Source: Clostridiales bacterium
Lineage (GTDB): Bacteria > Bacillota > Clostridia > Christensenellales > Pumilibacteraceae
Reading direction: 5' to 3'
DNA: 33,017 bases
Assembly (NCBI GenBank): GCA_022508425.1
Contig: JAFLVF010000004.1
Span: forward strand, 1 to 33,017
The notes below the pieces were generated by a model, which ran no database searches, had not been told where the DNA came from, and saw only the letters and a program-made list of their open reading frames with translations. The translations under genes and the position numbers were made by a program. Below are positions 12,951 through 30,297 of this stretch, one piece after another (position 1 is the stretch's first letter; each line of letters starts with the position of its first letter).

Positions 12951-15506
12951 TCAATCCTCGACAACGATTACGTTTTTGTCCGCCAAATCGTTTGTCGCTA
13001 TGTACAGCGACGGCGCGCCGGACGACTTATCGGGGACGGGGCTTACCGCTTTCCCGTTTAGTATAAACGTGCGCGCGCCCCTATCTGTCTTGCGATAAAA
13101 CAGGTCTATGCGCTTTCCCTTTGCCGTCAAGTGTATCTCGGCGCTGTTCATGGGCATGTATTCGGACGGGGATATGGCCACGCCGTTGAGGTCGGGGATT
13201 ATGCCGAATACGTATTTGACGAGCGCCTTGACGAGCGCGTTGGAACTGCCGGTAAACCAATCGCTCATCGATTCGCCGTCCAGGCCGAGCTCTTCGTTAT
13301 AGCAATAGCTGTTGCTCATGATAAACGGCGTTGTCGTAATCAGGCTGTGGGTGAGAGGCAAAACTTTGAACAGCTGTTCCCACGCTTTTTTCCCTTCGCC
13401 CAAGAGGAACAGCGACCATATTCCGAACATCGTTGCATGCACGTACACCGCGCCGTTCTCCGCCGTGCCGGGCGGAAGGTCGACAATGCGACCGACGCCT
13501 TTTGCGTCGCTGTCGAAATGGGGCGCGAAGGTCTTTAGCCCGTATTTGCTGTCGAGCCGAGAGAAGCTGTCGAGGATGTCTTTCTTGATGCTCTTGTCCA
13601 ATAGGTATGCGCCCGATATCACCCAGAACGCGTTGGCCGTCAGCCCGTCGCGGCTCATGCCGTCGGGGTCGTCGAAGCCGCCGACCGTGTACGACTTGCC
13701 GTCGCCCCAGCCGTGCAGAATTTTGCGTGCGCCGTCTTTGCTTACGATTGCGTGCTCTTGCAGGCCGCGCAACAATCTCTCTCGCGCGGTGGTCAATCTC
13801 TGCCTGTCGCCTAAGTCAATGCCGACATGCTCCGATATCTGCAATAGCTCGTCGAGGTTTTTGTACAACTGCAACGACGCCATGACCGAAACGCCGCTAC
13901 CGTATTCCTTGTCGGGGTCGCGCGAAACGCCGAGGCCGTCGACGGCGTCGTTCCAATCGCCGTACAGAATGCGAAGGCACCCTGTCTCCTCGTCGATATT
14001 ATTCAGCATATAGCCGACTATACGCTTGAGGTGCTCGGCAATCGTGTCGCGCGTCTCCACGCTCTCCACTCGATTGCGCCCGACTATTTTGTAATAACCG
14101 CACACCTCGTTGAGTATCGAATAGTCGTCGGTGTACGAGAGATATGTATAGATTGCCGAGATTATCCACACGTTTTGATCGATAAACTCGCGGGTATCCA
14201 TCTGCGGCAGTGCGCCTTTTGCGGGCAGAGAGTATTGGCGCGGCGCGCGCCCCGACGGGTCGATAAAGCCGAACAACTCAATCAGCTTTGTGCGGCATTC
14301 CTCCGGCCGCCAAACAAGCGCCGCTTCTATCTGCTGTACTACGTCTCTGACGCCGAGCAGAGAGATTCCGCTGTTCTTTGCGAGCGCGCAAAACCCGACC
14401 TGCCGCACGACGTTGGCTATAAACTCGGTAAAGGTCTCGCCGTTTAATTTCTCGCCGAACTCGCCGAACTTCATGGACAGCGCCGTCTTTGAGCGCGCCC
14501 TATTGTCGTCGGACCGTATGAGCGCGTCAAGCGCATTCTCGGCATAATCCTTGTCGACGGCGCGCACCGTACCGCACGTTTCGAAGCTCGCTTCGAGCAC
14601 GTAGTCTAAGTAGGCGACGTCGCCCGCTTGAATATTGACGCCGAGCATGTCGCCCGCGGCCGCCGTCTCGCCGAACTTACACACCGACTTCTGCCGATCG
14701 AAGTGCCCCGAGAACAGCGCGGGAGAGGACGTAATCGAGCTCGTCACGCCGCCCGCAAAGTCGGCGCGCGAGCAGGTGTGCTCGAAGTAGTTGACGTGTT
14801 CGGCTCGAACATGGCGGTTGATTACGCCGTAGTTGACGAGCCTTGTCATACGGTCGATGTTCTCTACGCTCTCAAACACAAAACCGTGCTCGGTCGCAGT
14901 GCACTTCTTGAACCATTTGGTCTCGTTGCATTCCCCGGCGGCATGCATCAATAGGCAGTTTAGATGTGTGGCAAGATAGGTTTCGATACTGTTCTTGCCC
15001 GTATTGATCGCACCGACGGTGAACACCGCTTTCTTGTCGTTCCCGACAAAAGCGCGGACGAAATATATCGCGCCCTTTACCTTAGCGATATAGTACGCCG
15101 CTTCGGGCGTGTATACCATAAACCGCTTGATGTTTTTCTCTTGCGCTTGCTTCGCCGCGCCCGTAATCGAGACGGGGAAGTAGCCGGCATTGGTCTTGAC
15201 CCCGCCGAAGAAAGCCGCATACGGCTGTTTGCCGTCGTCGACGGGCAGAATGTAATAAAACGTGCTCTCGTTGAGAGAAACGTTTCCGGACGAGTGCGCC
15301 CACAGTGTAAAACCGTCGCAAGCGTACGGATAGCGGCTGTCGCCCGAAGATCTCGGATAGCACAGCACCTTGCCGTCGCCGAGGAAGAAACAGTTTTCCG
15401 GCAATTCGCGACGGGAGCGCAATTGGGCATTGAGCTCGAGATTGCGCTCGGCGCGGACAAAATCGAGAATAGTATCTTTTAGCATTTTCAATCTACCGTT
15501 AATCAT
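12951..15506 (-). CDS. GH94-family glycoside phosphorylase
   Basis: The 851-residue cytoplasmic protein matches GH94, enzymes that cleave beta-linked glucosyl or N-acetylglucosaminyl ends with phosphate to yield an alpha-sugar-1-phosphate. Seen in order: an N-terminal beta-sandwich region, GVRDVVQQ near residue 385 (family GFRDxxQD), YGDWND at 515-520 with D520 as the likely general acid, ENGAVYVHAT near 690, and DWFTGSS near 755 matching the phosphate-binding (S/W)xTG loop. The loops between motifs diverge from textbook cellobiose and chitobiose phosphorylases, so the substrate is open. Neighbouring nagA, nagB and mutase genes make a GlcNAc-containing disaccharide attractive; a beta-glucan oligosaccharide fits the GH16 gene. 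The first ATG has no good ribosome site, and M8 (15485) is a possible alternative start. It lies 21 bp after the solute-binding protein in one leftward operon. Confidence 0.82.
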   Translation of the reverse strand: MINGRLKMLKDTILDFVRAERNLELNAQLRSRRELPENCFFLGDGKVLCYPRSSGDSRYPYACDGFTLWAHSSGNVSLNESTFYYILPVDDGKQPYAAFFGGVKTNAGYFPVSITGAAKQAQEKNIKRFMVYTPEAAYYIAKVKGAIYFVRAFVGNDKKAVFTVGAINTGKNSIETYLATHLNCLLMHAAGECNETKWFKKCTATEHGFVFESVENIDRMTRLVNYGVINRHVRAEHVNYFEHTCSRADFAGGVTSSITSSPALFSGHFDRQKSVCKFGETAAAGDMLGVNIQAGDVAYLDYVLEASFETCGTVRAVDKDYAENALDALIRSDDNRARSKTALSMKFGEFGEKLNGETFTEFIANVVRQVGFCALAKNSGISLLGVRDVVQQIEAALVWRPEECRTKLIELFGFIDPSGRAPRQYSLPAKGALPQMDTREFIDQNVWIISAIYTYLSYTDDYSILNEVCGYYKIVGRNRVESVETRDTIAEHLKRIVGYMLNNIDEETGCLRILYGDWNDAVDGLGVSRDPDKEYGSGVSVMASLQLYKNLDELLQISEHVGIDLGDRQRLTTARERLLRGLQEHAIVSKDGARKILHGWGDGKSYTVGGFDDPDGMSRDGLTANAFWVISGAYLLDKSIKKDILDSFSRLDSKYGLKTFAPHFDSDAKGVGRIVDLPPGTAENGAVYVHATMFGIWSLFLLGEGKKAWEQLFKVLPLTHSLITTTPFIMSNSYCYNEELGLDGESMSDWFTGSSNALVKALVKYVFGIIPDLNGVAISPSEYMPMNSAEIHLTAKGKRIDLFYRKTDRGARTFILNGKAVSPVPDKSSGAPSLYIATNDLADKNVIVVED

Positions 15507-15527
15507 TCGTCGATTTGCGACGGGCGC

Positions 15528-16961
15528 TTAGCTTAAGCCGCATTGGCGTTTCCAATCGTTCCATTGTCCCGAAACTTCGGTTTTGATTATGCTGAATGCG
15601 TTGTCGATAGAAGTGCCGTCGATGATGCGCTTGTAAGGCCGCGCGCCGCCCGTGCCCCAAATATCGACCTTGTTGTTGAGGTTGAGTAGGGCGGTGCTCT
15701 GCGTGATGTTTTGAATATCCTTTACGGGCGGATAGGAAGTAAACGCCTTGCTGTACGATTTCTTGACGTCGATTATGTTGGACATAAAGCTGTCCGTCGT
15801 CGACGCGCGAAGCGAGCCTTTGTAGGCGAGAACGCCGTGCGCTTCGTTGATATATGTTTCGCATCCCCAATCGCTGATCAGCAGTTTGATAAACGCCTTG
15901 GCCTTGTCCTGCTTGATCGAGCTGGCGGGCACTGCGATATATTGGTCGTCGCCGACGGTGTATGTTATGTCGGTGTCGACGGCGTCGGTTGCGGCGGGTG
16001 TCTTCATGTACCCGAGTTCGAACTTGCCGGAAAGGTCGGTAATTCCGTAATTGATTATCTCGTTGTACAGCCAGTCGCCGTTAAACATCATCGCGGCATA
16101 GCCGTTGGCAAAGCGCGTCTGCGCCGTGTGGTTGTTGTCGTTGCTTATATAATTGGCGCTGTTGGAAAACAGCTCGCTCCACATAGTGGTGGCCGTCTTG
16201 AGGTGCGCGTACGTTGCGTTTTGGTTCGCGTCGAAAATGTCGGGTGAATCGTACTTCATAAACTGCTTGATATTGTTCTCTCCGGCAAGTTGGGCCCACC
16301 ATGTAAACACCGCGTAGTCGAAGTAGTCGATGTTCGCGCTCGTGTAAATAAAGGGTGCGACGTGCTCGTTGGGGTCGTCCGAGCCCGCTACGGGCACGGC
16401 GGCTCTGCGTATGGTATTGCAAAGTTGAACGAGCTCGTCGTATGTCTCGGGGATATTCCAGCCGTTGTCGTCGAACATTTTCTTGTTGTAATAAATGCCG
16501 CCGACGCCGGCAATCAGCGGTAAGCGGTACGTATGCAGGCTTCCGTCTCTGTCGGGGAAATAAATGGAATTGCCGTAATCGGGAAGGACGAGGTCCTTTA
16601 CCTTCTCGCCGTCCACCGTTTCGTCGAGAAGCGAATCGAGATTGGCAAACTTGCCCTGCGATGCATAGCCCTTCCAGCCCGCGTCGACATTTATATAAAT
16701 GTCATCGACGTTGTTCTTGCTCGCAAGATGCGTGGAAATAAGCGAGGACGCATTGGCGCTCGGCGTGATGTTGACTTTGACTCCCGTCTCTTGCGTGTAT
16801 TTCTCGGCAACCTTCTCTATCCAGGTCGTGCCGTATCCTTTGTCTACGCAAATGATATTGAGCGTATTGGGATCGTTCTTGGTTTTGTTACACGCAAAAA
16901 GGGGCATGGCGCACGTTGCCGTAAGCAAAACAGCGAGAATTTTCGAAACGGTTTTCTTCAT
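15528..16961 (-). CDS. Sugar ABC transporter solute-binding lipoprotein (CUT1 type)
   Basis: The 477-residue protein has a lipoprotein signal peptide (MKKTVSKILA, hydrophobic core, LFAC with lipidated C24). The mature part has the family 1 extracellular binding protein pattern: an N-terminal TLNIICVDKG strand, the GGIYYNKKMFDD hinge element, a FANGYAAMMFNGDW loop, and a C-terminal helical region with AKAFIKLLISD. It should capture oligosaccharides at the outer membrane face and pass them to the two permeases encoded on the other strand. It is the first gene of a leftward operon with the GH94 phosphorylase, and has both a strong promoter and GGAGGG (16966-16973). Length is somewhat above the usual 420-450 residues. 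The ligand cannot be read from the sequence. Confidence 0.9.
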   Translation of the reverse strand: MKKTVSKILAVLLTATCAMPLFACNKTKNDPNTLNIICVDKGYGTTWIEKVAEKYTQETGVKVNITPSANASSLISTHLASKNNVDDIYINVDAGWKGYASQGKFANLDSLLDETVDGEKVKDLVLPDYGNSIYFPDRDGSLHTYRLPLIAGVGGIYYNKKMFDDNGWNIPETYDELVQLCNTIRRAAVPVAGSDDPNEHVAPFIYTSANIDYFDYAVFTWWAQLAGENNIKQFMKYDSPDIFDANQNATYAHLKTATTMWSELFSNSANYISNDNNHTAQTRFANGYAAMMFNGDWLYNEIINYGITDLSGKFELGYMKTPAATDAVDTDITYTVGDDQYIAVPASSIKQDKAKAFIKLLISDWGCETYINEAHGVLAYKGSLRASTTDSFMSNIIDVKKSYSKAFTSYPPVKDIQNITQSTALLNLNNKVDIWGTGGARPYKRIIDGTSIDNAFSIIKTEVSGQWNDWKRQCGLS

Positions 16962-17003
16962 AAATTTCCCTCCGATTTTTAATTAAGTTAAAAAATCTTT
17001 TAT

Positions 17004-17032
17004 AAGATAACACATTTTTTGCTGTTTGTCAA
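17004..17032 (-). promoter_or_regulatory. Promoter of the binding-protein/GH94 operon
   Basis: On the minus strand TTGACA (17027-17032), a 17-bp spacer and TATCTT (17004-17009) form a strong sigma-A-like promoter. It lies about 45 bp upstream of the ATG at 16961. CTGT-N8-ACAG flanks the -35 and could be a weak operator. Confidence 0.7.
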
Positions 17033-17234
17033 TACAGTTTTGAAAAATAAAAGATAATGATGCACCGATACTTTAAACTTTGCGGGAGCGGGAAACGGGG
17101 TGAAAAACGCCCGATATTTATTGTATATAACGGTCTCGACAAAAACGGCATATAAGGCGAGCGCAAAGGCATGCCGTCGTCCGACCCCGAGCGGCGGCCT
17201 CGGCAAAAATTTTTTAACAAATTAAAAAAACCTA
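17033..17234. other. Divergent intergenic region without a supported gene
   Basis: The 375-bp gap between divergent operons holds the two promoters at its edges. In between I see a 31-codon frame (17056-17154) with no ribosome site, a GGCATGCC palindrome (17168-17175), and a short CCGAG/CTCGG stem (17187-17203) followed by a T6 run that might be a weak terminator. None supports a gene. Regulators of both operons, such as the ROK protein, would be expected to bind somewhere here. Confidence 0.5.
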
Positions 17235-17336: not shown

Positions 17337-19037
17337 GTGACGAGGAAAGGTGCAGCGTGTATATTTGCGGCCGTTTGTTTTGTCCTGCCCTCCGCGTTTA
17401 TGTTTTCGGCGTGCGGCAAGAAAGAGTCGCCGCCGCCCGAGCCTAAAGAGGGCGAGGCGGTGCGCCTCCTGTCGGGGACGGAGCTCGATTACGACAGAGC
17501 GTTTTTCGACGGGTTTGACAACGGCGTGAGCTACGACAATTGGTACATAGGCAAACAGGCGTGGGGTGCCGGCGGCAACGGCGGCGTTATCCCCGAGAAC
17601 GTCAATTACACCGACGACGGCGTGGTCATCTTCTCGGGCAACGGCGAGTACTATACGCGCGGCGACGTTGCGGGCGTGGGCGCTGTCAAAGACGGCACAC
17701 TGACGGGCGGCGCGCTTATCAGCAAGTTTTTGACGGGCCCGGGCAGATACGAGATAAAGATGAAGGTGTTGCCGCGGCTTGGCGCATGCAGTGCGTTTTG
17801 GACGTTTGCCTACGACGGCAACGCACCCGACGGATTTCCGTCACCCGGCAATCACGAGATAGATATAGAGCTGCCCGGCGGCAACAAGACAGGCGGCGAC
17901 AATATAGGGTTTGACAGCGTGCTCAATACCAATTATTGGTCGGTCGAGCAAAACATTTCCCAGGACAAGAAGCTGTCCGACGTGTCGGGCGGCGTAGTGT
18001 CCGCCGTCAACGACGGGCGGTGGCACACATTCGGGTTTGATTGGTACACCGTCGAGCCGAATGAGAGCGAAACTGTGGACGGCGAGCGCCCGACGGACAC
18101 CGGCAAGGTCGTGTATTACATAGACGGGATAGTAACCGCAATAAACGACGCTTTCGTGCCGTTCTATCAATCACGGCTGTGGTTGGGCGTGTGGTTTCCG
18201 CACAACACCGGGTTTGTGGGCGACGCGCTGTTCGAAAAGGATTACATGAGCGTCGATTACGTCAGCTACATACCGTTCAAGAACATGCCGTACTACGAGG
18301 ATTTTGTTCCCGACGTCAACGGCGTTGCCGATATTTCGGAATACCCGACAAAGCCTGTCGTCGCGGTCAAGGGCAATCTCGTATCCAACGGCGATTTCGA
18401 GTACGCGGCAAAGAAGGCGACCAATACCGGCTGGGAGGACAGGAAGAGCAATTATTCGTCGTCCGATTACGCGCTGGCGCAAGAAGACTTTAAGACGGCG
18501 TACGAGGCCGACAAAGCCGAGTACGATCGAATAATGGAACAAAACGTGCGCGAGTACTTCGAAGAAACTCATCCCGCGCTGTCGGGCGACGAGCTCGAGC
18601 AAGCGTACGCGGCGTACAAGGCGACGGAGGACTACGAGGACGATCTCGCCGCCGAGCTTGTCAGATTGAGAAACGCGTATATCTATCCCGAGCAGTCGCG
18701 GTGCTACGCCGAAGAGAGCACGGGATATTTGACGACGTGCGGCGCGCGCATAGTCGATTGCGGTCGACTCACTCAGACAATCGACAGTGTTTACGGCGGG
18801 TATGAAATAGACTACTCGTTTATGGCGAAGGGAAAGGGCACGGCGACGATTAGATTCTTGGCCGGCCGCGACGGAACCTCGCTTGCCGAGCACAGTATCG
18901 GTATTGACAAAGACGGGTTTACTCGGTTTTCGGGCACGCTTACGGCGCCCGAGGGCACGAGATACGTTCAGATTTCGTTCACCAGCTTCTACAAAGCGGA
19001 AGTCACGGTGGACGACGTCGTGATAGAGGTGGCGTAA
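17337..19037 (+). CDS. GH16-family beta-glycanase lipoprotein with CBM-like C-terminus
   Basis: The 566-residue protein has a lipoprotein signal (FSAC, lipidated C26) and a GH16 catalytic domain at about residues 50-330. The catalytic motif HEIDIELPG supplies E174 (nucleophile), D176 and E178 (acid/base), the classical ExDxE of endo-acting beta-glycanases. GH16 members cut beta-1,3/1,4-glucans, agar-type galactans or mucin-type chains; the specificity is open. Residues from about 350 on resemble a CBM4/9-like beta-sandwich, starting with SNGDFEY. It is split by a charged, Ala/Glu/Tyr-rich helical stretch at about 378-450. The start is GTG with AGGGAGG 6 bp upstream. It is the first gene of a rightward operon and overlaps the permease gene by one base (TAATG). 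It should be tethered outside the cell and feed the transporter. Confidence 0.88.
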   Translation: MTRKGAACIFAAVCFVLPSAFMFSACGKKESPPPEPKEGEAVRLLSGTELDYDRAFFDGFDNGVSYDNWYIGKQAWGAGGNGGVIPENVNYTDDGVVIFSGNGEYYTRGDVAGVGAVKDGTLTGGALISKFLTGPGRYEIKMKVLPRLGACSAFWTFAYDGNAPDGFPSPGNHEIDIELPGGNKTGGDNIGFDSVLNTNYWSVEQNISQDKKLSDVSGGVVSAVNDGRWHTFGFDWYTVEPNESETVDGERPTDTGKVVYYIDGIVTAINDAFVPFYQSRLWLGVWFPHNTGFVGDALFEKDYMSVDYVSYIPFKNMPYYEDFVPDVNGVADISEYPTKPVVAVKGNLVSNGDFEYAAKKATNTGWEDRKSNYSSSDYALAQEDFKTAYEADKAEYDRIMEQNVREYFEETHPALSGDELEQAYAAYKATEDYEDDLAAELVRLRNAYIYPEQSRCYAEESTGYLTTCGARIVDCGRLTQTIDSVYGGYEIDYSFMAKGKGTATIRFLAGRDGTSLAEHSIGIDKDGFTRFSGTLTAPEGTRYVQISFTSFYKAEVTVDDVVIEVA

Positions 19038-20011
19038 TGGCGAGCGCAGTTGCTATAAATACGAGACGTCGTTACAGCCGCATTACGAAGAGCAAGCTCA
19101 AAGATTACGCTTTCGTAGGCGTTTTGCTTTTGTATCCGGTATTGCAGTTTGTAGTCACCTGGTCGTTTGTAAACGTCGGGTCGCTCCTGCTCGCGTTCCA
19201 ATCGGTAGATACCTGGGGCAACGTCACGTCGATAGGCTTTGACAATTTCGCTATCGTGCTGAAAAATATCTTCAAGAGCGCAATCAACGATACGGGCGTG
19301 AGCTGGCTGAACAACCGCTCGGTAATACTGTTAAACTCGCTCGGCTACGGCGCGATCACTATATTTATCAGCCTGCCGCTGTCCATGCTGTTCGCGTATT
19401 TCCTGCAAAAGGACATGCCGATAGCTAACGTGTTCCGCGTCATATTCTTCCTGCCCAACATCATACCCATTGTCGCGCTCGTCATGGCGTTTAACATGCC
19501 GCTCGACTCTTCGTACGGCTATCTGTACAAGATAATGCAGTCAATGGGTTTTTCGGGCGGTTATATTTACGACAAATGGCCGAGCTCGCAGATGTGGGTA
19601 TATCTGTACTGTATATGGGCGGGCCTAGGGTACAACGTAGTCTTGATGTCGGGCGCGATAGGCCGCATACCCAAGGAAATTTACGAGAGCGCCAAGCTCG
19701 ACGGCGCGGGGTATATGACCGAGTTTTTCAGGATTACGATACCGCTCGTATGGCCGACGATAGTAACGCTCATTATCCTCGGGCTTACAAATGTTTTGAC
19801 GCTGTATCTCCAGCCGTACTTGTTGACCAACGAGGGGTCGGGCAACACGGGAACGATTGCCATGGAGATATTTACCGAGACGGCGTCTTTCAATCAAGCT
19901 AAGTACAACGAGGCGGCGGCAAAGGGTTTGCTGTTCTCTGTTGTGTGGGCACCGATAGTTTTGCTTGCGCGAAGCAGATTGTCCAAGAAATTCAGCGGCG
20001 TGGACTTTTGA
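19037..20011 (+). CDS. CUT1 sugar ABC transporter permease (MalF/UgpA-like)
   Basis: The 324-residue integral membrane protein has about six hydrophobic segments. Its cytoplasmic EAA loop reads ESAKLDGAGYMTEFFRITIPLVWP, with the conserved A-x-x-DGA core that docks the ATPase. An N-terminal basic stretch precedes the first membrane helix. It should form the channel with the next-encoded permease, take substrate from the lipoprotein encoded on the opposite strand, and use the ATPase encoded about 10 kb downstream. The ATG shares its A with the GH16 stop, with GAGGTGG just upstream. Sugar type is not readable from the sequence. Confidence 0.92.
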   Translation: MASAVAINTRRRYSRITKSKLKDYAFVGVLLLYPVLQFVVTWSFVNVGSLLLAFQSVDTWGNVTSIGFDNFAIVLKNIFKSAINDTGVSWLNNRSVILLNSLGYGAITIFISLPLSMLFAYFLQKDMPIANVFRVIFFLPNIIPIVALVMAFNMPLDSSYGYLYKIMQSMGFSGGYIYDKWPSSQMWVYLYCIWAGLGYNVVLMSGAIGRIPKEIYESAKLDGAGYMTEFFRITIPLVWPTIVTLIILGLTNVLTLYLQPYLLTNEGSGNTGTIAMEIFTETASFNQAKYNEAAAKGLLFSVVWAPIVLLARSRLSKKFSGVDF

Positions 20012-20024: not shown

Positions 20025-20909
20025 ATGACAGCTGTTAAGTCGATGCGAAGGCGATATAAGTCCAAGAAAAAGTTTACCGCATACAGAATGGCCAAGCCGA
20101 TAATGTTTGCGGTGTTCGTAGTGTATGCGGTGTCGCTCATAGTTCCGTTTTTGTGGATGTTCATGAACTCGTTCAAGAGTGTGGGCGAGTTTAACACCGG
20201 CAACATCTTCGGTTTTCCCATAGAATGGTCGTCTACCAACCTGATAGACGTCATGTCTATGCAGATGGGCAACGGTCAGACCATATTCGATATGCTGCTT
20301 ATGAGCATTGTAACGACGGTGCTCGGCACGATCATTTCGGTAGGCCTGTCCACAATAGCGGCGTACGTCGTCGCCAAATACAATTTCCCCGGCAAGAAGG
20401 TTATTCTCGGCGCCGCCATATTCACCATGATAGTGCCCATTATCGGAACATTGCCCGCGCAGGTGCGCATGCTGGAGACATTCGGCATGATGGATTCGCT
20501 TGTCGGCGTATTGTTCCTGTATTCCGGTTGCTTCGGGTTTAACTTCATAATGTTGCACAGCTCGTTCGAAACAATTTCGTGGAGCTACGCCGAGGCGGCG
20601 CAGATAGACGGGGCCAACAGATTCCAGATAATGTTCCGCATAATGCTTCCGCTTGCAAAAGGCCCGATTATCGCCATTTGCATACTTCAGGCAATCGTGC
20701 TGTGGAACGACTATTCGACGCCGTTCCTGTTTATGAACAGCAACAAAACCCTCGCCGTCGGCTTGCAGGAGCTTCAGACCGGACACACGTCCGAATATCC
20801 GCTCGTGTTCTCGGCGGTGATGGTGGCGGTCATACCTATATTTATACTGTTCGCCTGCTTCCAAAAGACTATTATCAAAAACACCATAGCCGGCGGACTA
20901 AAGGGATAG
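20025..20909 (+). CDS. CUT1 sugar ABC transporter permease (MalG/UgpE-like)
   Basis: The 294-residue protein begins at ATG 20025 behind GGGAGGAAAG; the longer ORF in the track (19965) would run into the previous gene without a ribosome site. It has six predicted membrane segments, and its EAA loop reads YAEAAQIDGANRFQIMFRIMLP. The opening 'FLWMFMNSFKSVGEF' pattern is typical of the MalG subfamily. It is the partner of the upstream permease, 13 bp away. Together they form the transmembrane part of the oligosaccharide importer. Confidence 0.93.
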   Translation: MTAVKSMRRRYKSKKKFTAYRMAKPIMFAVFVVYAVSLIVPFLWMFMNSFKSVGEFNTGNIFGFPIEWSSTNLIDVMSMQMGNGQTIFDMLLMSIVTTVLGTIISVGLSTIAAYVVAKYNFPGKKVILGAAIFTMIVPIIGTLPAQVRMLETFGMMDSLVGVLFLYSGCFGFNFIMLHSSFETISWSYAEAAQIDGANRFQIMFRIMLPLAKGPIIAICILQAIVLWNDYSTPFLFMNSNKTLAVGLQELQTGHTSEYPLVFSAVMVAVIPIFILFACFQKTIIKNTIAGGLKG

Positions 20910-20917: not shown

Positions 20918-22798
20918 ATGACGTTATCCAAAAGAGCAAAGATAATAATAATCGCGGTCGCCGCGGCCGTCGTGATAGCGACGGTCACGGTGTTGCTCGT
21001 CCTCTTGCTTCCAAAAAAAGATAATGCGCCCACGCCCGCGTTTGCTTTTGCCGAGTACACGGTCGGCAACGGCGACAGGGTGACGGCGAGCGGCGCCGAC
21101 TCGTACAGGATAGTGGGCGGCGCGCCGACGGGCGTGTCTGTCACTCCCGACGGCGTATTCGTCGTCGGGGACGGCGCGACCGACGGAGCGCAGGTTTTGC
21201 TCGGCGCCGTCAAGGGCGGCAAAGTCGTTTCGACCGCGGTGTGTACGATTTCGGTGATATCCGCGCCGCCCGTCATTGTTTTCGACAATCTCTCGCTGTA
21301 CGTCATAGACGGGGAACGCGTGAGCGCGACGGCAACGCCCGCACGGTCGATTACATATTCGCTGAAATCGGAAGTCGACGGAGTAAAGATCGACAGAGTG
21401 ACGGGCACGGTATCTTTCTCATCGACGGTCGAGGACGGTACCGAATTTACCGTCACTGCGACGGCAAACGGCGTCGGCGCGGAAAAGAGCTTCAAAGCGT
21501 CGATAGGCACGCACGTCACCACGCCGCAGAATGTGGCGATATGCGAGTACAAAGTGGGCGGTGCGGCGCAGTTTGCGCTCGATTTCGGCGGCGACGAAGA
21601 AACGGCGGACAAAGGCGTGCTCGGCGTTTCCGTCAGGAACTCGCTTTTGAGCGCTTCCGAGTGGTCATACGATACGGCGACGCGGACTGTGTCCGTCAAG
21701 AACACCACGCTGTCGAAATTGCTGATGGGCGAGAACGCGGTCAGCATATTCACCGCGCGCAACACCGTCACGTGCGTGATAAAATGCGCGCGGTACGTAA
21801 AGGACGCGTTCGACCTCGCGGCGATAAACAAAAGCGCGCGCGCGCTTTCCGAATACTATGTTATGGTTGACGACGTCGACTTGACGGACTATCTCGCGGC
21901 GAGCGACGCGGGCTGGATGCCGATCGGCATTTACCGCGAGGTGGAGGACGGCACCGCGACGGCTATGGCGTTTAACGGAACGTTCGACGGCAACGGTCAT
22001 ACCATTTCGGGCTTTTGGGCCAATAGGAACGACGACTATGCGTACAACGGCGGACTGTTCGGCTACGTCACCGCCAATGCCCAGATTATGAACGTCAGAC
22101 TCGTCGGGAGCGAGACCAGGAACTACGTCGTCAAATCGTTCTCGGGCACTCTCGTCGGCTCCAACTGCGGAATAATCAAAAATTGCGCGGTGGACGTTGA
22201 TATAGAGCAGGCATACGGCTCGCGAATGGCGGGCGCGTTTGTGGGGCGCAACGAGGGCACGATATCCGATTGTTATTCGCTCGGGCTAATCGCGGACGGC
22301 GATGCGCACGGCGCGTTCTGCGGCGACAACAGCCTGGGTGCGCTGATACGTTGTTACGCGGTCAACGGCGGGGATATTCCCATGGTCGGGTCGGTATCCG
22401 CAAAGTTAGAGGATTGCAAGAAGTTTTCGACGGAGCAAGAGCTAATCGACGGCGCGGAGTTTTCCGAGAGCTCGGGCTGGATAACGTCGGACGGGCTTCC
22501 CCAACTACCCGTAATCCACGTCGACTACGAGCTTAGCGATATAGTGATCAACAATACCGAGACGGAGCTTGAGGTGGGGCAGACGTTACAGCTCGACATT
22601 ACTGGCGCGCCCGCCAATCTGTTCTCGTACGACAAACTGACTTTCTGCGTGATACAGGGCGACGGCGTTATAATTACGTCGAGCGGGCTCGTCATCACCG
22701 AATATGCGACGGCTGGCGTCGTACGAATAGAAGTACGCAACGGGGATATAGCGCGAGCGTATTCCTTTATGCTCGTACAATCGGGAGGAGAGGCATGA
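20918..22798 (+). CDS. Membrane-anchored extracellular protein with Ig-like and GLUG-like repeats
   Basis: The real start is ATG 20918, 8 bp after the permease stop; the 739-aa ORF in the track begins inside the permease gene. The 626-residue product has a single N-terminal membrane anchor (residues 9-31) and lies outside the cell. The first half is beta-rich with Ig-like units. Residues about 345-500 contain GLUG-type elements: FNGTFDGNGHTISGF, GGLFGYV, and repeated IKNC/ISDC turns typical of a right-handed beta-helix. A final Ig-like Big_2 unit (ELEVGQTLQLDI) ends the protein. It overlaps the regulator gene by 4 bp. Being embedded between permease and regulator genes, it may bind the glycan at the surface, but this is inference. 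Confidence 0.8.
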   Translation: MTLSKRAKIIIIAVAAAVVIATVTVLLVLLLPKKDNAPTPAFAFAEYTVGNGDRVTASGADSYRIVGGAPTGVSVTPDGVFVVGDGATDGAQVLLGAVKGGKVVSTAVCTISVISAPPVIVFDNLSLYVIDGERVSATATPARSITYSLKSEVDGVKIDRVTGTVSFSSTVEDGTEFTVTATANGVGAEKSFKASIGTHVTTPQNVAICEYKVGGAAQFALDFGGDEETADKGVLGVSVRNSLLSASEWSYDTATRTVSVKNTTLSKLLMGENAVSIFTARNTVTCVIKCARYVKDAFDLAAINKSARALSEYYVMVDDVDLTDYLAASDAGWMPIGIYREVEDGTATAMAFNGTFDGNGHTISGFWANRNDDYAYNGGLFGYVTANAQIMNVRLVGSETRNYVVKSFSGTLVGSNCGIIKNCAVDVDIEQAYGSRMAGAFVGRNEGTISDCYSLGLIADGDAHGAFCGDNSLGALIRCYAVNGGDIPMVGSVSAKLEDCKKFSTEQELIDGAEFSESSGWITSDGLPQLPVIHVDYELSDIVINNTETELEVGQTLQLDITGAPANLFSYDKLTFCVIQGDGVIITSSGLVITEYATAGVVRIEVRNGDIARAYSFMLVQSGGEA

Positions 22799-23925
22799 AT
22801 GCGGATATAAGTACAGGCAAAACACAGAGCTTTGCACGGTGCCTTAACAACAGGCTCGTCATGCGGCTGTTGCGAGAAAACGGCGCGGCTTCGTCCACCA
22901 TGCTCGCCGAACGCCTCGATCTGTCAAACGCGGCGCTCACGGCGATTATAGCCGATCTCAAGACCAACGGGTATATCAAAGAGCACGGCGACGTTTCTAC
23001 CCCTATCAAGACCGGTCGGCCGCCCAAGCTGTGGACGGTAAACGCCGATTACGGCTGTATAGTCGTAATATCGCTTCAAGACTACGTTGCGCGCGTCGTC
23101 ATCAGCGACATGAAGATGAAGATAAAGGACAGCATCGAGACGCGCATCGAGAGATACGATATAGCCATGCTGTACGAGATAGTGTTAGCCGTCAAAAACC
23201 TGCTCGGCTCGGACAAATACAGGAACATCCCTCTGAAATGGCTGGAATTCTCGGTGCCCGGCCGCGTCGACATGCTGACGGGCGAACTCCAGCTGTCCTC
23301 GCAGTTCGACAAGGACATATTCAGCGAGAAGAACTTTATAGTCAACCTGTTTGAGCGGCAGTTCGGCGTTCCGGTAGTGCTCGACAACGATATCAATCTT
23401 GCGGCGCTCGGCGAAATGAACTGCGGATTGCTAAAGGGCATAGGCAACGGTATGATAGTGCACGTCGACGAGGGTATAGGCGGCGCGCTCATAATAGACG
23501 AGAAATTGTACGCGGGCAGTCGCGGCTTTGCCGGCGAGTTCGGGCTTGTGCGCACACGTTTCGGCGACGAAGTGGGCGTGCTCGACGAGTTCGTGTCCAT
23601 GCGCGCGATTACAAAAAAGCTCGCCAAAGGCGACGTGTTCGATCTGTACGCCCGCGACGAGGACGCGCAAAAGTACGTGCTTGACACGGCGCGCTGTCTC
23701 GGTCGCGTACTCAAAGATCTGGTAGAAGTGCTCGACATCCCGACGATTGTCCTGTCGGGCGGCGTGACCAAGTTCGGCGAGAAATACCTAAACGTTCTCA
23801 ACGAGGAGGTCGGGCATTCCATAAACGGTGCCCGCGTGTACCCGTCGCTATTAGGCAAAGACGCGTCCATACACGGCGCGATTTATAAAGCAGTGGAAAC
23901 CTTAACCGACGACACCTTCAAGTAG
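22795..23925 (+). CDS. ROK-family transcriptional regulator (NagC/XylR type) with degenerate metal site
   Basis: The 376-residue protein has an N-terminal winged helix-turn-helix (about residues 18-75, with SSTMLAERLDLSNAALT and the basic wing KTGRPPK). A ROK sugar-binding domain follows, containing the DNDINLAALGE and GIGGALIID segments and FAGEFG. Normal members continue with GHM and a C-x-C-G-x-x-G-C-x-E zinc motif; here the region reads EFGLVRTRFGDEVGVLDE, so the histidine and all cysteines are missing. It probably represses or activates the surrounding sugar genes in response to a sugar or sugar phosphate. The changed site suggests a different effector or none. GGAGGAG precedes the ATG, which overlaps the upstream stop (ATGA). 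With its DNA-binding domain it is a regulator, not a kinase. Confidence 0.9.
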   Translation: MNADISTGKTQSFARCLNNRLVMRLLRENGAASSTMLAERLDLSNAALTAIIADLKTNGYIKEHGDVSTPIKTGRPPKLWTVNADYGCIVVISLQDYVARVVISDMKMKIKDSIETRIERYDIAMLYEIVLAVKNLLGSDKYRNIPLKWLEFSVPGRVDMLTGELQLSSQFDKDIFSEKNFIVNLFERQFGVPVVLDNDINLAALGEMNCGLLKGIGNGMIVHVDEGIGGALIIDEKLYAGSRGFAGEFGLVRTRFGDEVGVLDEFVSMRAITKKLAKGDVFDLYARDEDAQKYVLDTARCLGRVLKDLVEVLDIPTIVLSGGVTKFGEKYLNVLNEEVGHSINGARVYPSLLGKDASIHGAIYKAVETLTDDTFK

Positions 23926-24074: not shown

Positions 24075-24075
24075 C

Positions 24076-27000
24076 ATGAAAAAGTTCACACTTATATCGG
24101 CTATAGCCGCGGTTACGACGGTGTTTGCGCTTGTCGGGCTTGTCGGCTGTTCGGATAAGAAAACTTCGCCGCCCGAGGAGACCCCGCCGGCGGTAGAGGC
24201 GACGCCCCTCGACGCGCCGGTAATCGAGCTCAACGACAACGTCGTCGAGTGGGACGCGGTCGACCATGCCGTGTCGTACTCGGTGTACGTCGGCGATGAC
24301 GACGCCGTCACAGTAAACTCCACGACGACGTCGTACACAGTGGACAAGACGGAGGTAGGCACTTACGATATTTACGTCATTGCCAATGCTTCGTCATCGG
24401 GCGAGTATACCGATTCGGAAAAGTCCAACACCGTCACGTACGAGGTTTTCTCGCCCGAAGTTGTGGCGCTCGTCAGGCTCCGCCTTGTCAACAACGCCGA
24501 TAAACTCGACTATTTCCTCGACGAAGTGAGCGCGGAGACAAAACCCGATCTTACCGGGCTTGTCGTCAACGCCGTGTACAGCAACGGGAGCGTAAAGAAA
24601 GTTACGGCCACGCCCGAAGCGGTCGATTTCTCTACACCCGGCGACAAGACGGTGAAATTGTCGTACACCGAGGACGGCCGTACCGCAACGACGACGTATG
24701 TAATCACCGTACGCCGCCGTACCGAAGCGGATATACAAGACCTTATTACGCTTAAGCACGAGTTTACCGCCGCAGGCGACTACAAGCTCGCCGACGGAAC
24801 GGTCACCGCCGTCGATATGGACGGAACGATTGTGCCAGTCAAGGCCGAGGGCGGCGTAAGCAAAATAAATTTTCAAAAATCGGGCTCCAAGCTCGTAAAA
24901 GTTACCGCCGCGGACGGCAAGGTATCCTTTGTCAAAGTTACGGCCGCGATTTTCATTACGAATACGGACGGCTTCCTCGCAATGAACAATGCTCTCGACG
25001 GATATTATCTGTTGCGCAACGATATCACTTTCGAGGGATACAGCGCCACTATCGGCACCGCGCCGCTGAAAGCCGCGGAGGGCTTTGACGACGAGCGCGC
25101 ATTTACTTATGACGTAAGCGGCACTGCGCGGCAGGGCAAGGCGTTTACCGGCACGTTCGACGGCGACGGCTACGTCATCACAGGCTACCGCCATGCGACG
25201 GAGTCGTTCGGAACGGCGGACGGATACTATCTCGGCCTGTTCGGATATATCGGCGAGGGCGGAAAGGTTTGCAATTTCGTTCTCAGAAATTCGAGCATAA
25301 CGGGCGGCAAATGCAGTGCGATTATTTCGGGCGTCAACCTCGGCACGGTTGAGAACGTGACGATAGAGGACGACTGTTCTCTCAGCGTGTTCTACGCCGG
25401 GGGCGCCGTCGCCGCGGCGTACAACGGCGGTACAATCGGAAATATCGTGTGCGCGCCCGCACGCTTTAGCAGCAATTGGGACGGCGGCGCGTTCGTTTCC
25501 GCATACGAGAGCGCGGAGGGCGCGATCTCGAAAAACGTATATATCGCCAACAAGACCAATCTTACCGGCACGCTCGGCAACGGCTGGTACTACGCCGACG
25601 AGATAGGTACTGTATATTGCAACGCGACATATAAGAAGGTTCTCGCTATAGACACCACGATGTACAAAGGTGTGGACGGCAAGATCACGGTATTCCAACG
25701 CGCCGTCGAGGAGCTCGACTTTACGGTGTGGGTGAACGGTCAAGCGAACGAGGGCGTTTTGGCGTACTCGAGTTACGACCAAGATACGTACACCTATTAC
25801 TTGAAGCTTTTGACAACGGCGTCGGTCGATGCGGGCGACACTTTCGCCGTCGCGGTAAGGCCGCTCGGCAAGGATTATCTAAACAACGCCGTTACCGTCA
25901 CGGTGGGCGAGCCGTACGTGATATCCGCAACCTACGACGGCGATCCCATACAAGTGACAGCAGGTACCGACCTCAATATTTCGACAATTACTCTCAAGAC
26001 AACTTACACCGACGGTACGACCGGAACCATGCGCCCGCTCCGCTATGAGGGCTATAACAAGGGCGGCGCCGTAGGCGTCGCGCAGGAAGTCAAGCTGTTC
26101 TTCGGCGCCGGCGCGAACGATTACGTGCTCGTATCCGTCACGCCCAAGGCGGCGGAGGGCGACGTCGTAATCGGAATTTCGGCGACGAGGAAAAACAGCG
26201 ACCGCATAGTCACAGACATGGACGGCGCGCCCGACTTCGATCTTTACTATACGTTTACCGTGACTTACAGTATCAGCGCCGCCAAAACGGTGACGGTCGC
26301 TGGCGGCGTTTCCGTTACGGGCTGGGTATACGGTCACAATGCCGAAGTGACGGTGTCGTACGGCGAGGGCGGATATAACGTGTCCGACACAATTGCAATG
26401 GACGTATGGGCCGTTGTAAAATCGGCCACCGATTTCGCGGCGATCAACAATAACCTCAACGGCTACTACATGCTTGAAGATGGCGCTACGATAGACTTCG
26501 ACAACGGCGAAAAGCATGAGGCGCCGATTATAGGCGCAGTTCCCACAAAGGTTGTAGGTGGCGACACTATGATCGACACGGCCGACGCGCTCGAAGAAAC
26601 GGCGTTTAACGGCAAGTTCGACGGCAACGGCGGCAAGCTCGTCAATTGGGGCGCTCCCATAGACGGCTACGACGGTTGGAATATAAATCATTTCGGTCGT
26701 GCGATATTTGCGTATATAGGCTCGAACGGCGAGGTGTACGACTTTACCGTAGATAACTGCTTGGTGCAAGGCTTTAACGAGCTGGGCATAGTCAGCTGCT
26801 TTAACAAAGGCACAATCAGCGGCGTCACAGTCGAAGTCAATTGCCATATAGACACCGTTCACGGTGGCTTAGGTGCGTTTGCATCAATCAACCATGGCAA
26901 TATCACGGGCTGCACCAACAACGGCGCGACTTATACAAGCACGAAAGACAATCCGCGTGAGGATAAATCGCTTGCGGACGACGGCACTTCCGCGCACTGA
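24076..27000 (+). CDS. Large surface lipoprotein with FN3-like, Ig-like and GLUG-type repeats
   Basis: The 974-residue protein has a lipoprotein signal (GLVGC, lipidated C25) followed by a Pro/Glu-rich tether. An FN3-like domain comes next (about residues 45-130, starting PLDAPVIEL with VVEWDAV and a YDIYVIA strand). Then a Big_3-type Ig unit (about 133-215) with LTGLVVNAVYSNG. Two separated GLUG-type beta-helix segments contain FTGTFDGDGYVITGY with LGLFGYI, and FNGKFDGNGGKL with FAYIGSNGEVYDF. It resembles the protein encoded before the ROK gene and may be a diverged paralogue. It should sit on the outer face of the membrane as a glycan-binding or adhesive protein. No catalytic motif is visible. 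Large antisense ORFs over it are composition shadows. Confidence 0.82.
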   Translation: MKKFTLISAIAAVTTVFALVGLVGCSDKKTSPPEETPPAVEATPLDAPVIELNDNVVEWDAVDHAVSYSVYVGDDDAVTVNSTTTSYTVDKTEVGTYDIYVIANASSSGEYTDSEKSNTVTYEVFSPEVVALVRLRLVNNADKLDYFLDEVSAETKPDLTGLVVNAVYSNGSVKKVTATPEAVDFSTPGDKTVKLSYTEDGRTATTTYVITVRRRTEADIQDLITLKHEFTAAGDYKLADGTVTAVDMDGTIVPVKAEGGVSKINFQKSGSKLVKVTAADGKVSFVKVTAAIFITNTDGFLAMNNALDGYYLLRNDITFEGYSATIGTAPLKAAEGFDDERAFTYDVSGTARQGKAFTGTFDGDGYVITGYRHATESFGTADGYYLGLFGYIGEGGKVCNFVLRNSSITGGKCSAIISGVNLGTVENVTIEDDCSLSVFYAGGAVAAAYNGGTIGNIVCAPARFSSNWDGGAFVSAYESAEGAISKNVYIANKTNLTGTLGNGWYYADEIGTVYCNATYKKVLAIDTTMYKGVDGKITVFQRAVEELDFTVWVNGQANEGVLAYSSYDQDTYTYYLKLLTTASVDAGDTFAVAVRPLGKDYLNNAVTVTVGEPYVISATYDGDPIQVTAGTDLNISTITLKTTYTDGTTGTMRPLRYEGYNKGGAVGVAQEVKLFFGAGANDYVLVSVTPKAAEGDVVIGISATRKNSDRIVTDMDGAPDFDLYYTFTVTYSISAAKTVTVAGGVSVTGWVYGHNAEVTVSYGEGGYNVSDTIAMDVWAVVKSATDFAAINNNLNGYYMLEDGATIDFDNGEKHEAPIIGAVPTKVVGGDTMIDTADALEETAFNGKFDGNGGKLVNWGAPIDGYDGWNINHFGRAIFAYIGSNGEVYDFTVDNCLVQGFNELGIVSCFNKGTISGVTVEVNCHIDTVHGGLGAFASINHGNITGCTNNGATYTSTKDNPREDKSLADDGTSAH

Positions 27001-27036
27001 CGGCATTAAAACAACAGGGGAGATTAGACAACCGAT

Positions 27037-28443
27037 ATGGTCAAATTCGGAACGGGCGGATTTAGAGGCGTCATAGGCGACGACTTCAACCGCGACAACG
27101 TCAAGCTGGTCGCGCAGGGCTTGTGCGACATCATCAAGGCGCACGAGTATTTGCCGCGCGTCGTGGTGGGCTATGACTATCGTTTCGGCTCGGATTATTT
27201 CGCGGGCTGGATAGCGGAAACGCTCGCCGCCAACGACATTACATGCCTGTTGTACAACGAACCCATGCCGTCGCCCGCCGTCATGACGGCGGTGCGCGAC
27301 GAGAAGCTCGACTTCGGCTTTATGATAACGGCAAGCCACAATCCGTACTACTTTAACGGGGTCAAGCTGTTTATCAAGGGCGGAATGGATGCAGACGTTG
27401 CCACAACCAATGCGCTCGAGCGCGCAATCAACAGCGCGGACACCCCACTCCACATCACCCTCGACGAGGGCAAGGCTAAGGGGCTGATTGTCGACTACAA
27501 CAACAAGAAGCAGTACCTCGAAAATATCAAAAGCTTTCTTTCGCCCAAGCTTTTCGGCAGTAAGATAAAGATACTTTACGACAACCTCAACGGAGTGGGC
27601 GCGCGCTGTATCGAGCCGATGTTTCAAATGGCGGGGATAGAGAACTTCAAGATAATGAACGTTCAGCACGACGCGTTTTTCAATTTCTCGCCGCCCAATC
27701 CGACGGAGGCCGCGATGGAGCCGCTCAAAAGCCACGTCGTTCAATACGGCTTCGACTTCGCCATGGCTACCGACAGCGACAGCGACCGTTTGGGCATAAT
27801 CGACGAGAAGGGCAACTACGTTTCCAGCAATTTCATACTCGCGTGCTTGTATTACTATCTTCTCAAATACCGCGGCATGAAAGGCGACATTGTCAAAAAC
27901 TGCGCGACGACGACGCTCGTCGATATGATTGCGGCGCGCGCGGGGTACAAGTGCCACGAAGTGGACGTAGGATTTAAGAACATCTCGTCAAAGATACGCG
28001 AGGTGGACGCGCTTATCGGCGGCGAGAGCAGCGGCGGATTGACGGTGCGCGGCTACATATTCGGGAAAGACAGCGTGTTCAGCTCGCTTCTGTTCACCGA
28101 GATGGTCGCGCTGATGGGCAAGCCCGTGTCCGAGATAGTGAAAGAGGTGTGCGATTACGCGGGATACAACGGTGTTTGTATAGAGGACGAAATGCGCTTT
28201 GCCGACGGCGTGATACGCATTCCCGACGGTATGCCCGAGTTTTCGCTCGACATAGTACGAATCGAAGAGTACAACAACAATATCAAATATCACTTCGGCA
28301 ACGGGCAGTGGGCGCTCATACGCAAGTCGGGCACCGAGCCCGTGGTCAGATTGTTCGTCGAGTGCAACAGCGCCACCGCCGCGCGGGTCAACAGCAGAAA
28401 GTTGAGAGAATTTCTCACAAGCGGAAAGGGGAAGAACAAATGA
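27037..28443 (+). CDS. Alpha-D-phosphohexomutase (phosphoglucomutase/phosphomannomutase family)
   Basis: The 468-residue enzyme converts hexose-1-phosphates and hexose-6-phosphates. It shows all four family signatures: GTGGFRG at the N-terminus, the phosphoserine loop TASHNP with S100, the metal loop DSDSDR, the sugar-binding GGESSGG, and the C-terminal phosphate loop RKSGTEP. It is cytoplasmic. The substrate (Glc, Man, GlcN or GlcNAc phosphate) cannot be fixed by eye. In this operon it would link the sugar-1-phosphate from GH94 to the 6-phosphate used by NagA, NagB or glycolysis. The ribosome site GGGGAG is rather far (14 bp) from the ATG. Its stop overlaps the nagB start (ATGA). Confidence 0.93.
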   Translation: MVKFGTGGFRGVIGDDFNRDNVKLVAQGLCDIIKAHEYLPRVVVGYDYRFGSDYFAGWIAETLAANDITCLLYNEPMPSPAVMTAVRDEKLDFGFMITASHNPYYFNGVKLFIKGGMDADVATTNALERAINSADTPLHITLDEGKAKGLIVDYNNKKQYLENIKSFLSPKLFGSKIKILYDNLNGVGARCIEPMFQMAGIENFKIMNVQHDAFFNFSPPNPTEAAMEPLKSHVVQYGFDFAMATDSDSDRLGIIDEKGNYVSSNFILACLYYYLLKYRGMKGDIVKNCATTTLVDMIAARAGYKCHEVDVGFKNISSKIREVDALIGGESSGGLTVRGYIFGKDSVFSSLLFTEMVALMGKPVSEIVKEVCDYAGYNGVCIEDEMRFADGVIRIPDGMPEFSLDIVRIEEYNNNIKYHFGNGQWALIRKSGTEPVVRLFVECNSATAARVNSRKLREFLTSGKGKNK

Positions 28444-29162
28444 AAATCGTAATTGTCAAAAATTATAACGAGCTTTCCGCCGCCGCGGCGCTTATGATCG
28501 CGGACGTTTTGCGCTGTGTGAACAATCCCGTACTGTCGCTTGCGACGGGCAGTACTCCAATCGGCGCATACGCCGAGCTCGTCAATGCGTATAGGGACAA
28601 CAAGATATCGTTCAAAAACGTTTTGACATTCAATCTCGACGAGTACGTAGGGCTTCCCGCGACAGACGGCAACAGTTACCGCGCGTACATGAACAAACAT
28701 CTGTTCGACAACGTAGATATAGACAAGGACAACACTAATCTTCCCGACGGCACGGCAGACGACCTCGAGCAAGAGTGCAAGAGATATTCGGCACTGCTCG
28801 AAAAACACCCGAGGCATTTACAGCTCTTGGGGCTCGGCCGCAACGGGCATATCGGATTTAACGAGCCGGGGACGCGCTTCGACAGCGTGACGCACGTCGT
28901 AGAGCTTACCCCCGACACCATAAAAGCCAACTCGCGGCTGTTTGCGGACGGCGCCGTTCCCCGCCGCGCCGTGACTATGGGCATAAAAGATATCATGGCG
29001 GCAAAGCGAATCGTCCTGCTCGCCTCGGGGGAGAACAAAGCGCGCGCCGTATACAATACGGTCAAGGGCAGAGTAAGTGATAGCTGTCCTGCGAGCGTAT
29101 TGCAAACACATCCCGACGCAACGCTTATCGCGGATATGGAGGCGGCGCATGAGATTGTTTAG
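28440..29162 (+). CDS. nagB: Glucosamine-6-phosphate deaminase
   Basis: The 240-residue protein starts at ATG 28440, overlapping the mutase stop; the longer ORF in the track begins within the mutase gene. It converts glucosamine-6-phosphate to fructose-6-phosphate and ammonia. Recognisable parts are the SLATGSTP phosphate loop, NLDEYVGL with the catalytic D67, and GLGRNGHIGFNEPGT with H137 and E142. The length is that of short Firmicutes NagB enzymes without the E. coli allosteric C-terminus. AAGGGGAAG precedes the start. It lies between the mutase and nagA, making a compact amino-sugar catabolic cassette. Confidence 0.95.
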   Translation: MKIVIVKNYNELSAAAALMIADVLRCVNNPVLSLATGSTPIGAYAELVNAYRDNKISFKNVLTFNLDEYVGLPATDGNSYRAYMNKHLFDNVDIDKDNTNLPDGTADDLEQECKRYSALLEKHPRHLQLLGLGRNGHIGFNEPGTRFDSVTHVVELTPDTIKANSRLFADGAVPRRAVTMGIKDIMAAKRIVLLASGENKARAVYNTVKGRVSDSCPASVLQTHPDATLIADMEAAHEIV

Positions 29163-30297
29163 GAAGGCCAAGGTATATATCGAGGGCGTCGGCATCAAAA
29201 TGACAGACCTTCTGTTCGACACTCTCACCAGAAGCTACGAGAGCTCGGCCGACGCGGAGGAGATAAAAATTCCGTCTGACGCGTTAGTCGTGCCCGCGTT
29301 TATCGACCAACACATTCACGGAGTGGTCGGTGCGGACGCCTCGGACGGCGGCGGCGCGGTAAGAGTGATGGCAAAGGCCCTTCCGTCGGAGGGTACGGCG
29401 TACTTCCTGCCGACGACGATGACGGTAGGGCGCGAAGCGCTGTTGTCGGCGGTCGAAGCCGTCGGCAGAGCAATAGGCGACAACGACATGGGCGCGGAGA
29501 TACTCGGCGTTCATCTCGAGGGCCCGTTTATTTCGAACAAACACGTCGGCGCGCAAAACCCCGATCATGTGCGCGTTCCCGATATCGGGCTGTTGCAAGA
29601 GCTGATCGACGCGTCGGGCGGAAATATCAAGATGATGACGGTCGCGCCCGAACTCGACGGAGCGGATAAGCTTATACAATACGCTAAAGAGCATGCAATC
29701 AAGGTGTCGATAGGACATACCGACGCGACGTATTCGGAAGTCGAGCATGCGGGTAGACTCGGCGCGGACTGCATTACGCACACGTTCAACGCCCAGCGCG
29801 CTCTTCACCATCGCGAAGCGGGGACTGTGGGCGCGGCGCTCATGATGTACGGCATGTATGCCGAGCTCATCGCCGACTGCATACACGTAAGCGTGCCCGC
29901 TATGAAGCTTTTGCTGAAGTGTAAGCCCGAGGACAAGTTGATTCTCGTCACCGACTCGATACGCGCAAAGAATTTGTCGGGCGGCGAGAGCGAGCTCGGC
30001 GGGCAAAAGGTGACGGTGAGAGGGGGCGAGGCGCGGTTATCGGACGGAACGCTCGCCGGCAGTGTGCTCAAGATGAACGATGCGGTCAAAAACCTCGTCA
30101 TTAGATGTGGTGCGTCGATAACCCAAGCTGTGGACTGCGCTTCGGCTAACGTAGCAAAACATCTCGGTCTATTCGACGAGATGGGCGGAATCAAAATAGG
30201 CAAGCGCGCGTCGTACACGGTGCTCGACAAGAACTTCGACTGCGTGATGACAATAAGAGACGGCAAAACGATTTACGACAGAAATGCGGAGGCATAG
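29149..30297 (+). CDS. nagA: N-acetylglucosamine-6-phosphate deacetylase
   Basis: The 382-residue amidohydrolase removes acetate from GlcNAc-6-phosphate, giving the substrate of NagB. Metal and catalytic motifs are in order: FIDQHIHG near residue 55, HLEGPF with the metal-binding glutamate, IGHTDATY, THTFNAQ, and LVTDS with the catalytic aspartate. The start chosen is ATG 29149, which overlaps the end of nagB by 14 bp and has GGAGG 6 bp upstream; the 406-aa ORF in the track starts inside nagB. Translation is thus coupled to nagB. Its stop abuts the next ATG (TAGATG). Confidence 0.95.
   Translation: MRLFRKAKVYIEGVGIKMTDLLFDTLTRSYESSADAEEIKIPSDALVVPAFIDQHIHGVVGADASDGGGAVRVMAKALPSEGTAYFLPTTMTVGREALLSAVEAVGRAIGDNDMGAEILGVHLEGPFISNKHVGAQNPDHVRVPDIGLLQELIDASGGNIKMMTVAPELDGADKLIQYAKEHAIKVSIGHTDATYSEVEHAGRLGADCITHTFNAQRALHHREAGTVGAALMMYGMYAELIADCIHVSVPAMKLLLKCKPEDKLILVTDSIRAKNLSGGESELGGQKVTVRGGEARLSDGTLAGSVLKMNDAVKNLVIRCGASITQAVDCASANVAKHLGLFDEMGGIKIGKRASYTVLDKNFDCVMTIRDGKTIYDRNAEA

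Follow-up and report, generated by a model that had tools for sequence, protein, structure and literature searches.

Can a bacterium grow on glycans that contain N-acetylglucosamine (GlcNAc) without spending ATP on the first phosphorylation of the sugar, and from which disaccharide would it do so? The question is raised by a gene island of a Clostridiales bacterium from the gut (Pumilibacteraceae; GenBank assembly GCA_022508425.1, contig JAFLVF010000004.1) that carries a GH94 glycoside phosphorylase, a phosphohexomutase, the deaminase NagB, the deacetylase NagA, an ATP-binding cassette (ABC) importer and a GH16 lipoprotein, all of them intact. The window that we have analyzed covers bases 1 to 33,017 of this 49,961-base contig, which belongs to a 1.83 Mb metagenome-assembled genome that is 94% complete with 6.6% contamination. 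An original prediction had joined these genes into a kinase-free route starting with phosphorolysis of an N,N'-diacetylchitobiose-like disaccharide. The gene set itself is borne out, GH94, GH16, NagA and NagB scoring above their family cut-offs, and we consider it fairly likely from the sequence that the island takes up and degrades a GlcNAc-containing glycan by way of a GH94 enzyme that forms GlcNAc-1-phosphate. The disaccharide is a different matter, as GH94 falls outside the chitobiose phosphorylase (ChBP) clade and is devoid of equivalents of the ChBP residues Arg343 and Val631.

The Proposed Route

The four enzymes at the center of the route are apparently cytoplasmic and are encoded as follows.

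12951..15506, minus strand: GH94 glycoside phosphorylase of a deep clade (Pfam 110 bits, tree, residue table)
27037..28443, plus strand: phosphohexomutase, probable GlcNAc-1-phosphate mutase, with TASHNP serine and sugar loop GGESSGGLTVRG (four PGM_PMM domains, tree)
28440..29162, plus strand: NagB, glucosamine-6-phosphate deaminase (TIGR00502, 274 bits)
29149..30297, plus strand: NagA, N-acetylglucosamine-6-phosphate deacetylase (TIGR00221, 315 bits)

The open reading frames listed for NagB and NagA open too early; NagB starts at 28440, where it forms an ATGA overlap with the stop codon of the mutase, and the start of NagA is most likely 29149, preceded by GGAGG.

In the route that we propose the surface GH16 enzyme would cut a glycan outside the cell and the ABC importer would bring the oligosaccharide in. 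If the sugar taken up bears GlcNAc at the non-reducing end, GH94 would then phosphorolyse it to α-GlcNAc-1-phosphate, the mutase would turn this into GlcNAc-6-phosphate, and NagA and NagB would yield fructose-6-phosphate, acetate and ammonia. No ATP would be spent on the first phosphorylation. Gene content, intact motifs, clade membership and linkage are established by the sequence, and from these we infer the donor, acceptor and linkage of the GH94 substrate.

A Separate Clade of GH94 Enzymes

The GH94 protein (851 aa) matches its Pfam family at 110 bits against a cut-off of 27, a match that is clear but low. With the residues named for LpSOGP and VpChBP (PMC5309861) as reference, the catalytic and phosphate positions are kept (R387 D388 W518 D520 E683 H690), and R387 D388, W518 N519 D520, E683, H690 and FTGS are invariant across the clade to which the protein belongs. 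An AlphaFold2 (AF2) model (pLDDT 80, with active-site and pocket loops of low confidence at pLDDT <50) shows the β-sandwich and (α/α)6 barrel of solved GH94 structures, and the top Foldseek matches are all GH94, with TM scores of 0.63-0.76 to disaccharide enzymes.

In order to place the enzyme, as had been suggested along with the chitobiose assignment, a maximum likelihood tree was computed from 50 catalytic domains that included, for reference, those of Vibrio ChBP, Clostridium cellobiose phosphorylase (CBP), SdCBAP, a Blautia GH94 and cyclic glucan synthase. The window GH94 and ten relatives form a clade of their own with 100/100 support on a long branch, apart from the ChBP clade (100/100), the CBP clade (100/100) and the other known clades, a position that rules out assignment as a chitobiose phosphorylase by homology. 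Although PDB entry 8BOU bears the name chitobiose phosphorylase, we dropped it as a ChBP reference since it is the Blautia GH94 that acts on glucans; a plasmid search returned distant GH94 genes only. Val631 of VpChBP, named as crucial for chitobiose specificity (PMC10318527), is replaced in the window clade by the invariant Leu677, at a position where cellobiose-type enzymes carry Tyr, and in the residue table Arg343 of ChBP is without a counterpart. The protein is thus a GH94 enzyme whose active core is intact, but it does not group with the chitobiose phosphorylases. The best single-sequence PDB match is SdCBAP (4ZLE, 83 bits), and the clade-invariant Arg673 aligns with its Arg609, which we take to be an acceptor-site residue and treat as a lead only. 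The literature that we searched holds no characterized member of the clade, and it is the clade that is new here.

Could GH94 nonetheless act on N,N'-diacetylchitobiose, as part of an ordinary chitin route, in spite of its position outside the known ChBP clade? The type of mutase, NagA and NagB are as at chitobiose phosphorylase loci, which speaks for such a route. However, the deep separation of the clade, with neither the Val631 nor the Arg343 equivalent, the absence of GH18 and GH20 among the island proteins scanned, and the failure to find a GlcNAc kinase for the second GlcNAc all speak against it, and we regard it as very improbable.

A Mutase Akin to Those of Chitobiose Phosphorylase Loci

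The phosphohexomutase carries all four PGM_PMM domains of Pfam, and its best NCBIfam model is archaeal GlmM (259 bits, below cut-off); the genome holds five PGM-family proteins. In a tree it groups with mutases encoded beside ChBP, as their sister group, with 91/93 support, and the sugar loop is common to the window mutase clade and the ChBP-linked mutases; another protein of the genome, which is GlmM-like, carries GGEQSGH instead. When ChBP orthologues are picked by GH94 alone a mutase of this type is found within 7 kb in 4 of 4 cases, whereas such a mutase is the direct neighbor in none of ∼21 cellobiose phosphorylase loci. Seven further mutase-GH94 pairs, picked by mutase position, all contain true ChBP orthologues with Val631, 54-57% identical to Vibrio ChBP. 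In G284 and G179 (loci L144 and L145) another copy of the mutase lies immediately 3' of an N-acetylhexosamine 1-kinase homologue, a pairing that looks like a kinase version of the GlcNAc-1-phosphate route. Because these two partner enzymes, ChBP and the N-acetylhexosamine 1-kinase, share the product GlcNAc-1-phosphate, the activity of the window enzyme is, on the basis of gene linkage, most likely that of a GlcNAc-1-phosphate mutase.

Of the 396 genomes in the order, 30 have the mutase clade, among them 6 of the 7 with the window GH94 clade (Fisher p 8e-7, uncorrected for relatedness). Roughly half of its members have no GH94 nearby, so that it is no exclusive marker.

NagA and NagB in Relatives

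Both NagA (315 bits against a cut-off of 226) and NagB (274 against 237) score above cut-off, and no second full-length NagA was found in the whole genome, leaving the window copy as the only one. NagA and/or NagB lie near members of the GH94 clade in six loci, those of the window, G407, G019, G112, G296 and G406, and both are linked to GH94 in the window, in G407, which is of the same genus with identical gene order, and in G019. NagA directly follows GH94 in G112, where NagB is ∼11 kb off and split over two reading frames; NagB is seen without NagA in the stretch read of G296 and of G406. Near 35 other GH94 genes NagB is absent and NagA occurs once, at a ChBP orthologue, a difference (Fisher p 3e-4) that can serve as a guide only, as flanks are unequal and loci related. 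The NagA of G792 was dropped as evidence, lying ∼13 kb from GH94 in an operon with a GlcNAc transporter of the phosphotransferase system (PTS). Since island genes recur around GH94 relatives in several families of the order, their association appears to be more than chance. The predicted succession of GH94, mutase, NagA and NagB gains support from what lies together in other genomes, namely the mutase clade, NagA, NagB and N-acetylhexosamine 1-kinase, although the disaccharide given for it does not.

Kinases and the Acceptor Sugar

As the original prediction had it, no PTS or sugar kinase is found in the window, and no PTS_EIIC is found in the whole genome. The product of the ROK gene at 22795-23925 carries an N-terminal helix-turn-helix and reads as a NagC-like regulator, not a kinase. 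Elsewhere the genome has one ROK glucokinase (TIGR00744, 272 bits) and one galactokinase; no N-acetylhexosamine 1-kinase or other GlcNAc-type kinase was found in it. While the term kinase-free is justified for the window, a kinase would still be required for the sugar released as the acceptor half. Because a GlcNAc-type kinase was not found, the acceptor in this organism is probably not GlcNAc; galactose or glucose would be in keeping with the sugar kinases that the genome does encode.

A further arrangement is seen in G406, where GH94 is followed by an N-acetylhexosamine 1-kinase (420 bits to 4wh1), a LacZ-type β-galactosidase, a protein that reads as GH1-like and NagB. The protein adjoining this NagB (L146 9769-10611) opens AHQDDIEF and reads as PIG-L deacetylase-like, a possible stand-in for NagA. 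The kinase in this position would be expected if the amino sugar were the acceptor, that is if GH94 released hexose-1-phosphate from a hexosyl-GlcNAc and the GlcNAc thus set free were passed on to NagA and NagB by a kinase. No such kinase is seen, however, in the window genome or, outside G406, in the GH94-clade loci that we read, and the ChBP-type mutase, which requires GlcNAc-1-phosphate, is common; we consider this arrangement of the sugars improbable.

The GH16 Enzyme and the Upstream Glycan

The remaining genes of the island are listed below. The minus strand encodes GH94 and the solute-binding lipoprotein. In the opposite direction run GH16, the two permeases, a surface protein, the ROK regulator, another surface protein, the mutase, NagB, NagA and the MalK-type ATPase; the lipoprotein, permeases and ATPase make up the importer.

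15528..16961, minus strand: ABC solute-binding lipoprotein, lipobox LFAC (Pfam SBP_bac_1 80 bits; TIGR03850 at 130 bits and the NgcE model at 83 bits fall below cut-off)
17337..19037, plus strand: GH16 lipoprotein of ExDxE type (E174, D176, E178), nearest fold GH16_21 lichenase (Pfam 27 bits, Foldseek)
19037..20011, plus strand: ABC permease, MalF-like (profile matches)
20025..20909, plus strand: ABC permease, MalG-like (corrected start, preceded by GGAGG)
20918..22798, plus strand: membrane-anchored surface protein without Pfam family (same place in relatives, conserved)
22795..23925, plus strand: ROK-family transcriptional regulator, NagC/Mlc-like, with N-terminal helix-turn-helix (profile matches, N-terminus)
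24076..27000, plus strand: large surface lipoprotein without Pfam family (profile scan)
30298..32382, plus strand: MalK-type ABC ATPase with long C-terminal extension, 694 aa (NF008653, 450 bits)

The GH16 lipoprotein exceeds its Pfam cut-off of 22 with 27 bits, and its ExDxE motif is invariant in 12 homologues. The branch of GH16 without a β-bulge includes lichenases, xyloglucan transglycosylases and fungal chitin transglycosylases, and the ExDxE strand has been assigned to it (PMC6827312). A phmmer search against the PDB gave no match, while the folds nearest to the AF2 model (pLDDT 85) are the GH16_21 lichenases 1mac, 1gbg and 3o5s (TM 0.81-0.82 by target length, Foldseek) at 20% identity by structure alignment. 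On its modeled fold the enzyme is of lichenase type and does not belong to the GH16 enzymes known to act on chitin or mucin. The original prediction saw in GH16 an unusual partner that hinted at a mixed glycan such as a mucin-type or GlcNAc-containing chain; with a GH16 of this type such a glycan is one possibility.

Just beyond the window edge the same contig encodes a GH84 β-N-acetylglucosaminidase (281 bits, with F5/8 type C domains; L035:8998-12234, G000:C85 ∼41197-44433) that is part of the same island, and GH84 homologues come shortly after the mutase in G122 and G088.

The lichenase likeness of GH16 is the main evidence for a β-glucan locus, in which a lichenase-like endo-glucanase would feed a GH94 that forms glucose-1-phosphate (Glc-1-P), the mutase would be a phosphoglucomutase, and NagA, NagB and GH84 would be separate amino-sugar genes sharing the island. 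Blautia producta does exploit a locus of GH16, ABC importer and GH94 on mixed-linkage glucan (PMC10318527). Together with this likeness, a number of points weigh against a GlcNAc-1-phosphate-forming GH94. The enzyme lies outside the ChBP clade, and its highest PDB profile scores are to glucose enzymes (cellobiose phosphorylases 98 and cellobionic acid phosphorylases 93, versus 56 bits for ChBP). According to a 2022 review all GH94 enzymes discovered after ChBP produce Glc-1-P (PMC8950772). G122, G088, G230, L003 and L004 have the mutase without NagA or NagB in the stretch read, and flank lengths differed between subfamily and control loci, which are not independent. Nevertheless, the mutase clade follows ChBP and N-acetylhexosamine 1-kinase and not cellobiose phosphorylase, NagA and NagB recur in loci of differing arrangement and adjoin GH94 in G112, the GH94 clade is without the Tyr of cellobiose-type enzymes, and the Blautia GH16 is of another subfamily, GH16_3. 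A β-glucan locus is a serious competitor but, in our view, rather unlikely.

Returning to GlcNAc-1-phosphate as the product, the galactokinase of the genome and the β-galactosidase of G406 would both fit galactose as acceptor, and with low confidence this brings poly-N-acetyllactosamine to mind. We tentatively suggest that the clade may be a second, independent GlcNAc-1-phosphate-forming lineage of GH94 with a substrate other than chitobiose, for example GlcNAc-β-1,3-Gal from host poly-N-acetyllactosamine cut by the surface ExDxE GH16, although we hold this to be doubtful. If true, the organism would have a way into host glycans that saves a kinase.

Several features beside these were noted. 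Large surface proteins without clear Pfam family recur in the clusters (window 20918-22798 and 24076-27000; L035), and some of their relatives match the GLUG motif weakly, so that glycan binding is possible. The MalK-type ATPase extends ∼350 residues past the usual OB domain; its G019 homologue (620 aa, same place) is 49% identical over the whole length. Beside the island are a DEAD/ResIII helicase, a DUF4238 protein and an ADP-ribosylglycohydrolase (window 7294-10567 and 11339-12175), and outside it (154-6254) lie two large proteins that carry both bacterial Ig-like domains and Listeria-Bacteroides repeats.

Comparison with Known Systems

If the proposed route is correct it would allow ATP-saving growth on GlcNAc-containing glycans for uncultured gut Clostridia in which no PTS is detected, and a separate GH94 clade that works with the same partners but behind another type of glycanase would mean a new specificity among phosphorylases, with possible use in glycoside synthesis.

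The bifidobacterial lacto-N-biose pathway combines a GH112 phosphorylase, which yields galactose-1-phosphate and not an N-acetylhexosamine 1-phosphate, with the kinase NahK. G406 likewise has a phosphorylase gene followed by a NahK homologue, but the phosphorylase is GH94. With SdCBAP (4ZLE) the window enzyme shares an Arg at the position of R609, while it is without a counterpart of Lys613, has Leu677 and is separated from it by a long branch. The Blautia producta locus (BpGH16MLG, ABC importer, BpGH94MLG; PMC10318527) resembles the island in its surface GH16, importer and cytoplasmic GH94; its GH94 belongs, however, to another clade, and mutase, NagA and NagB are missing from the locus as published.

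The succession of chitobiose phosphorylase, GlcNAc-1-phosphate mutase, NagA and NagB is itself already known. ChBP is the only GH94 specificity known to form GlcNAc-1-phosphate, according to a review (PMC8950772), and a route of ChBP and mutase has been proposed for Acidobacteria and Chitinispirillum (PMC6252331). The island resembles the Vibrio version in the logic of phosphorylase, mutase, deacetylase and deaminase and in ABC import, and a homologous mutase sits beside ChBP orthologues in the same order as the window organism. It differs in that its GH94 belongs to another clade, no GlcNAc kinase was found in the genome, and a lichenase-type GH16 and a GH84 take the place of chitinases.

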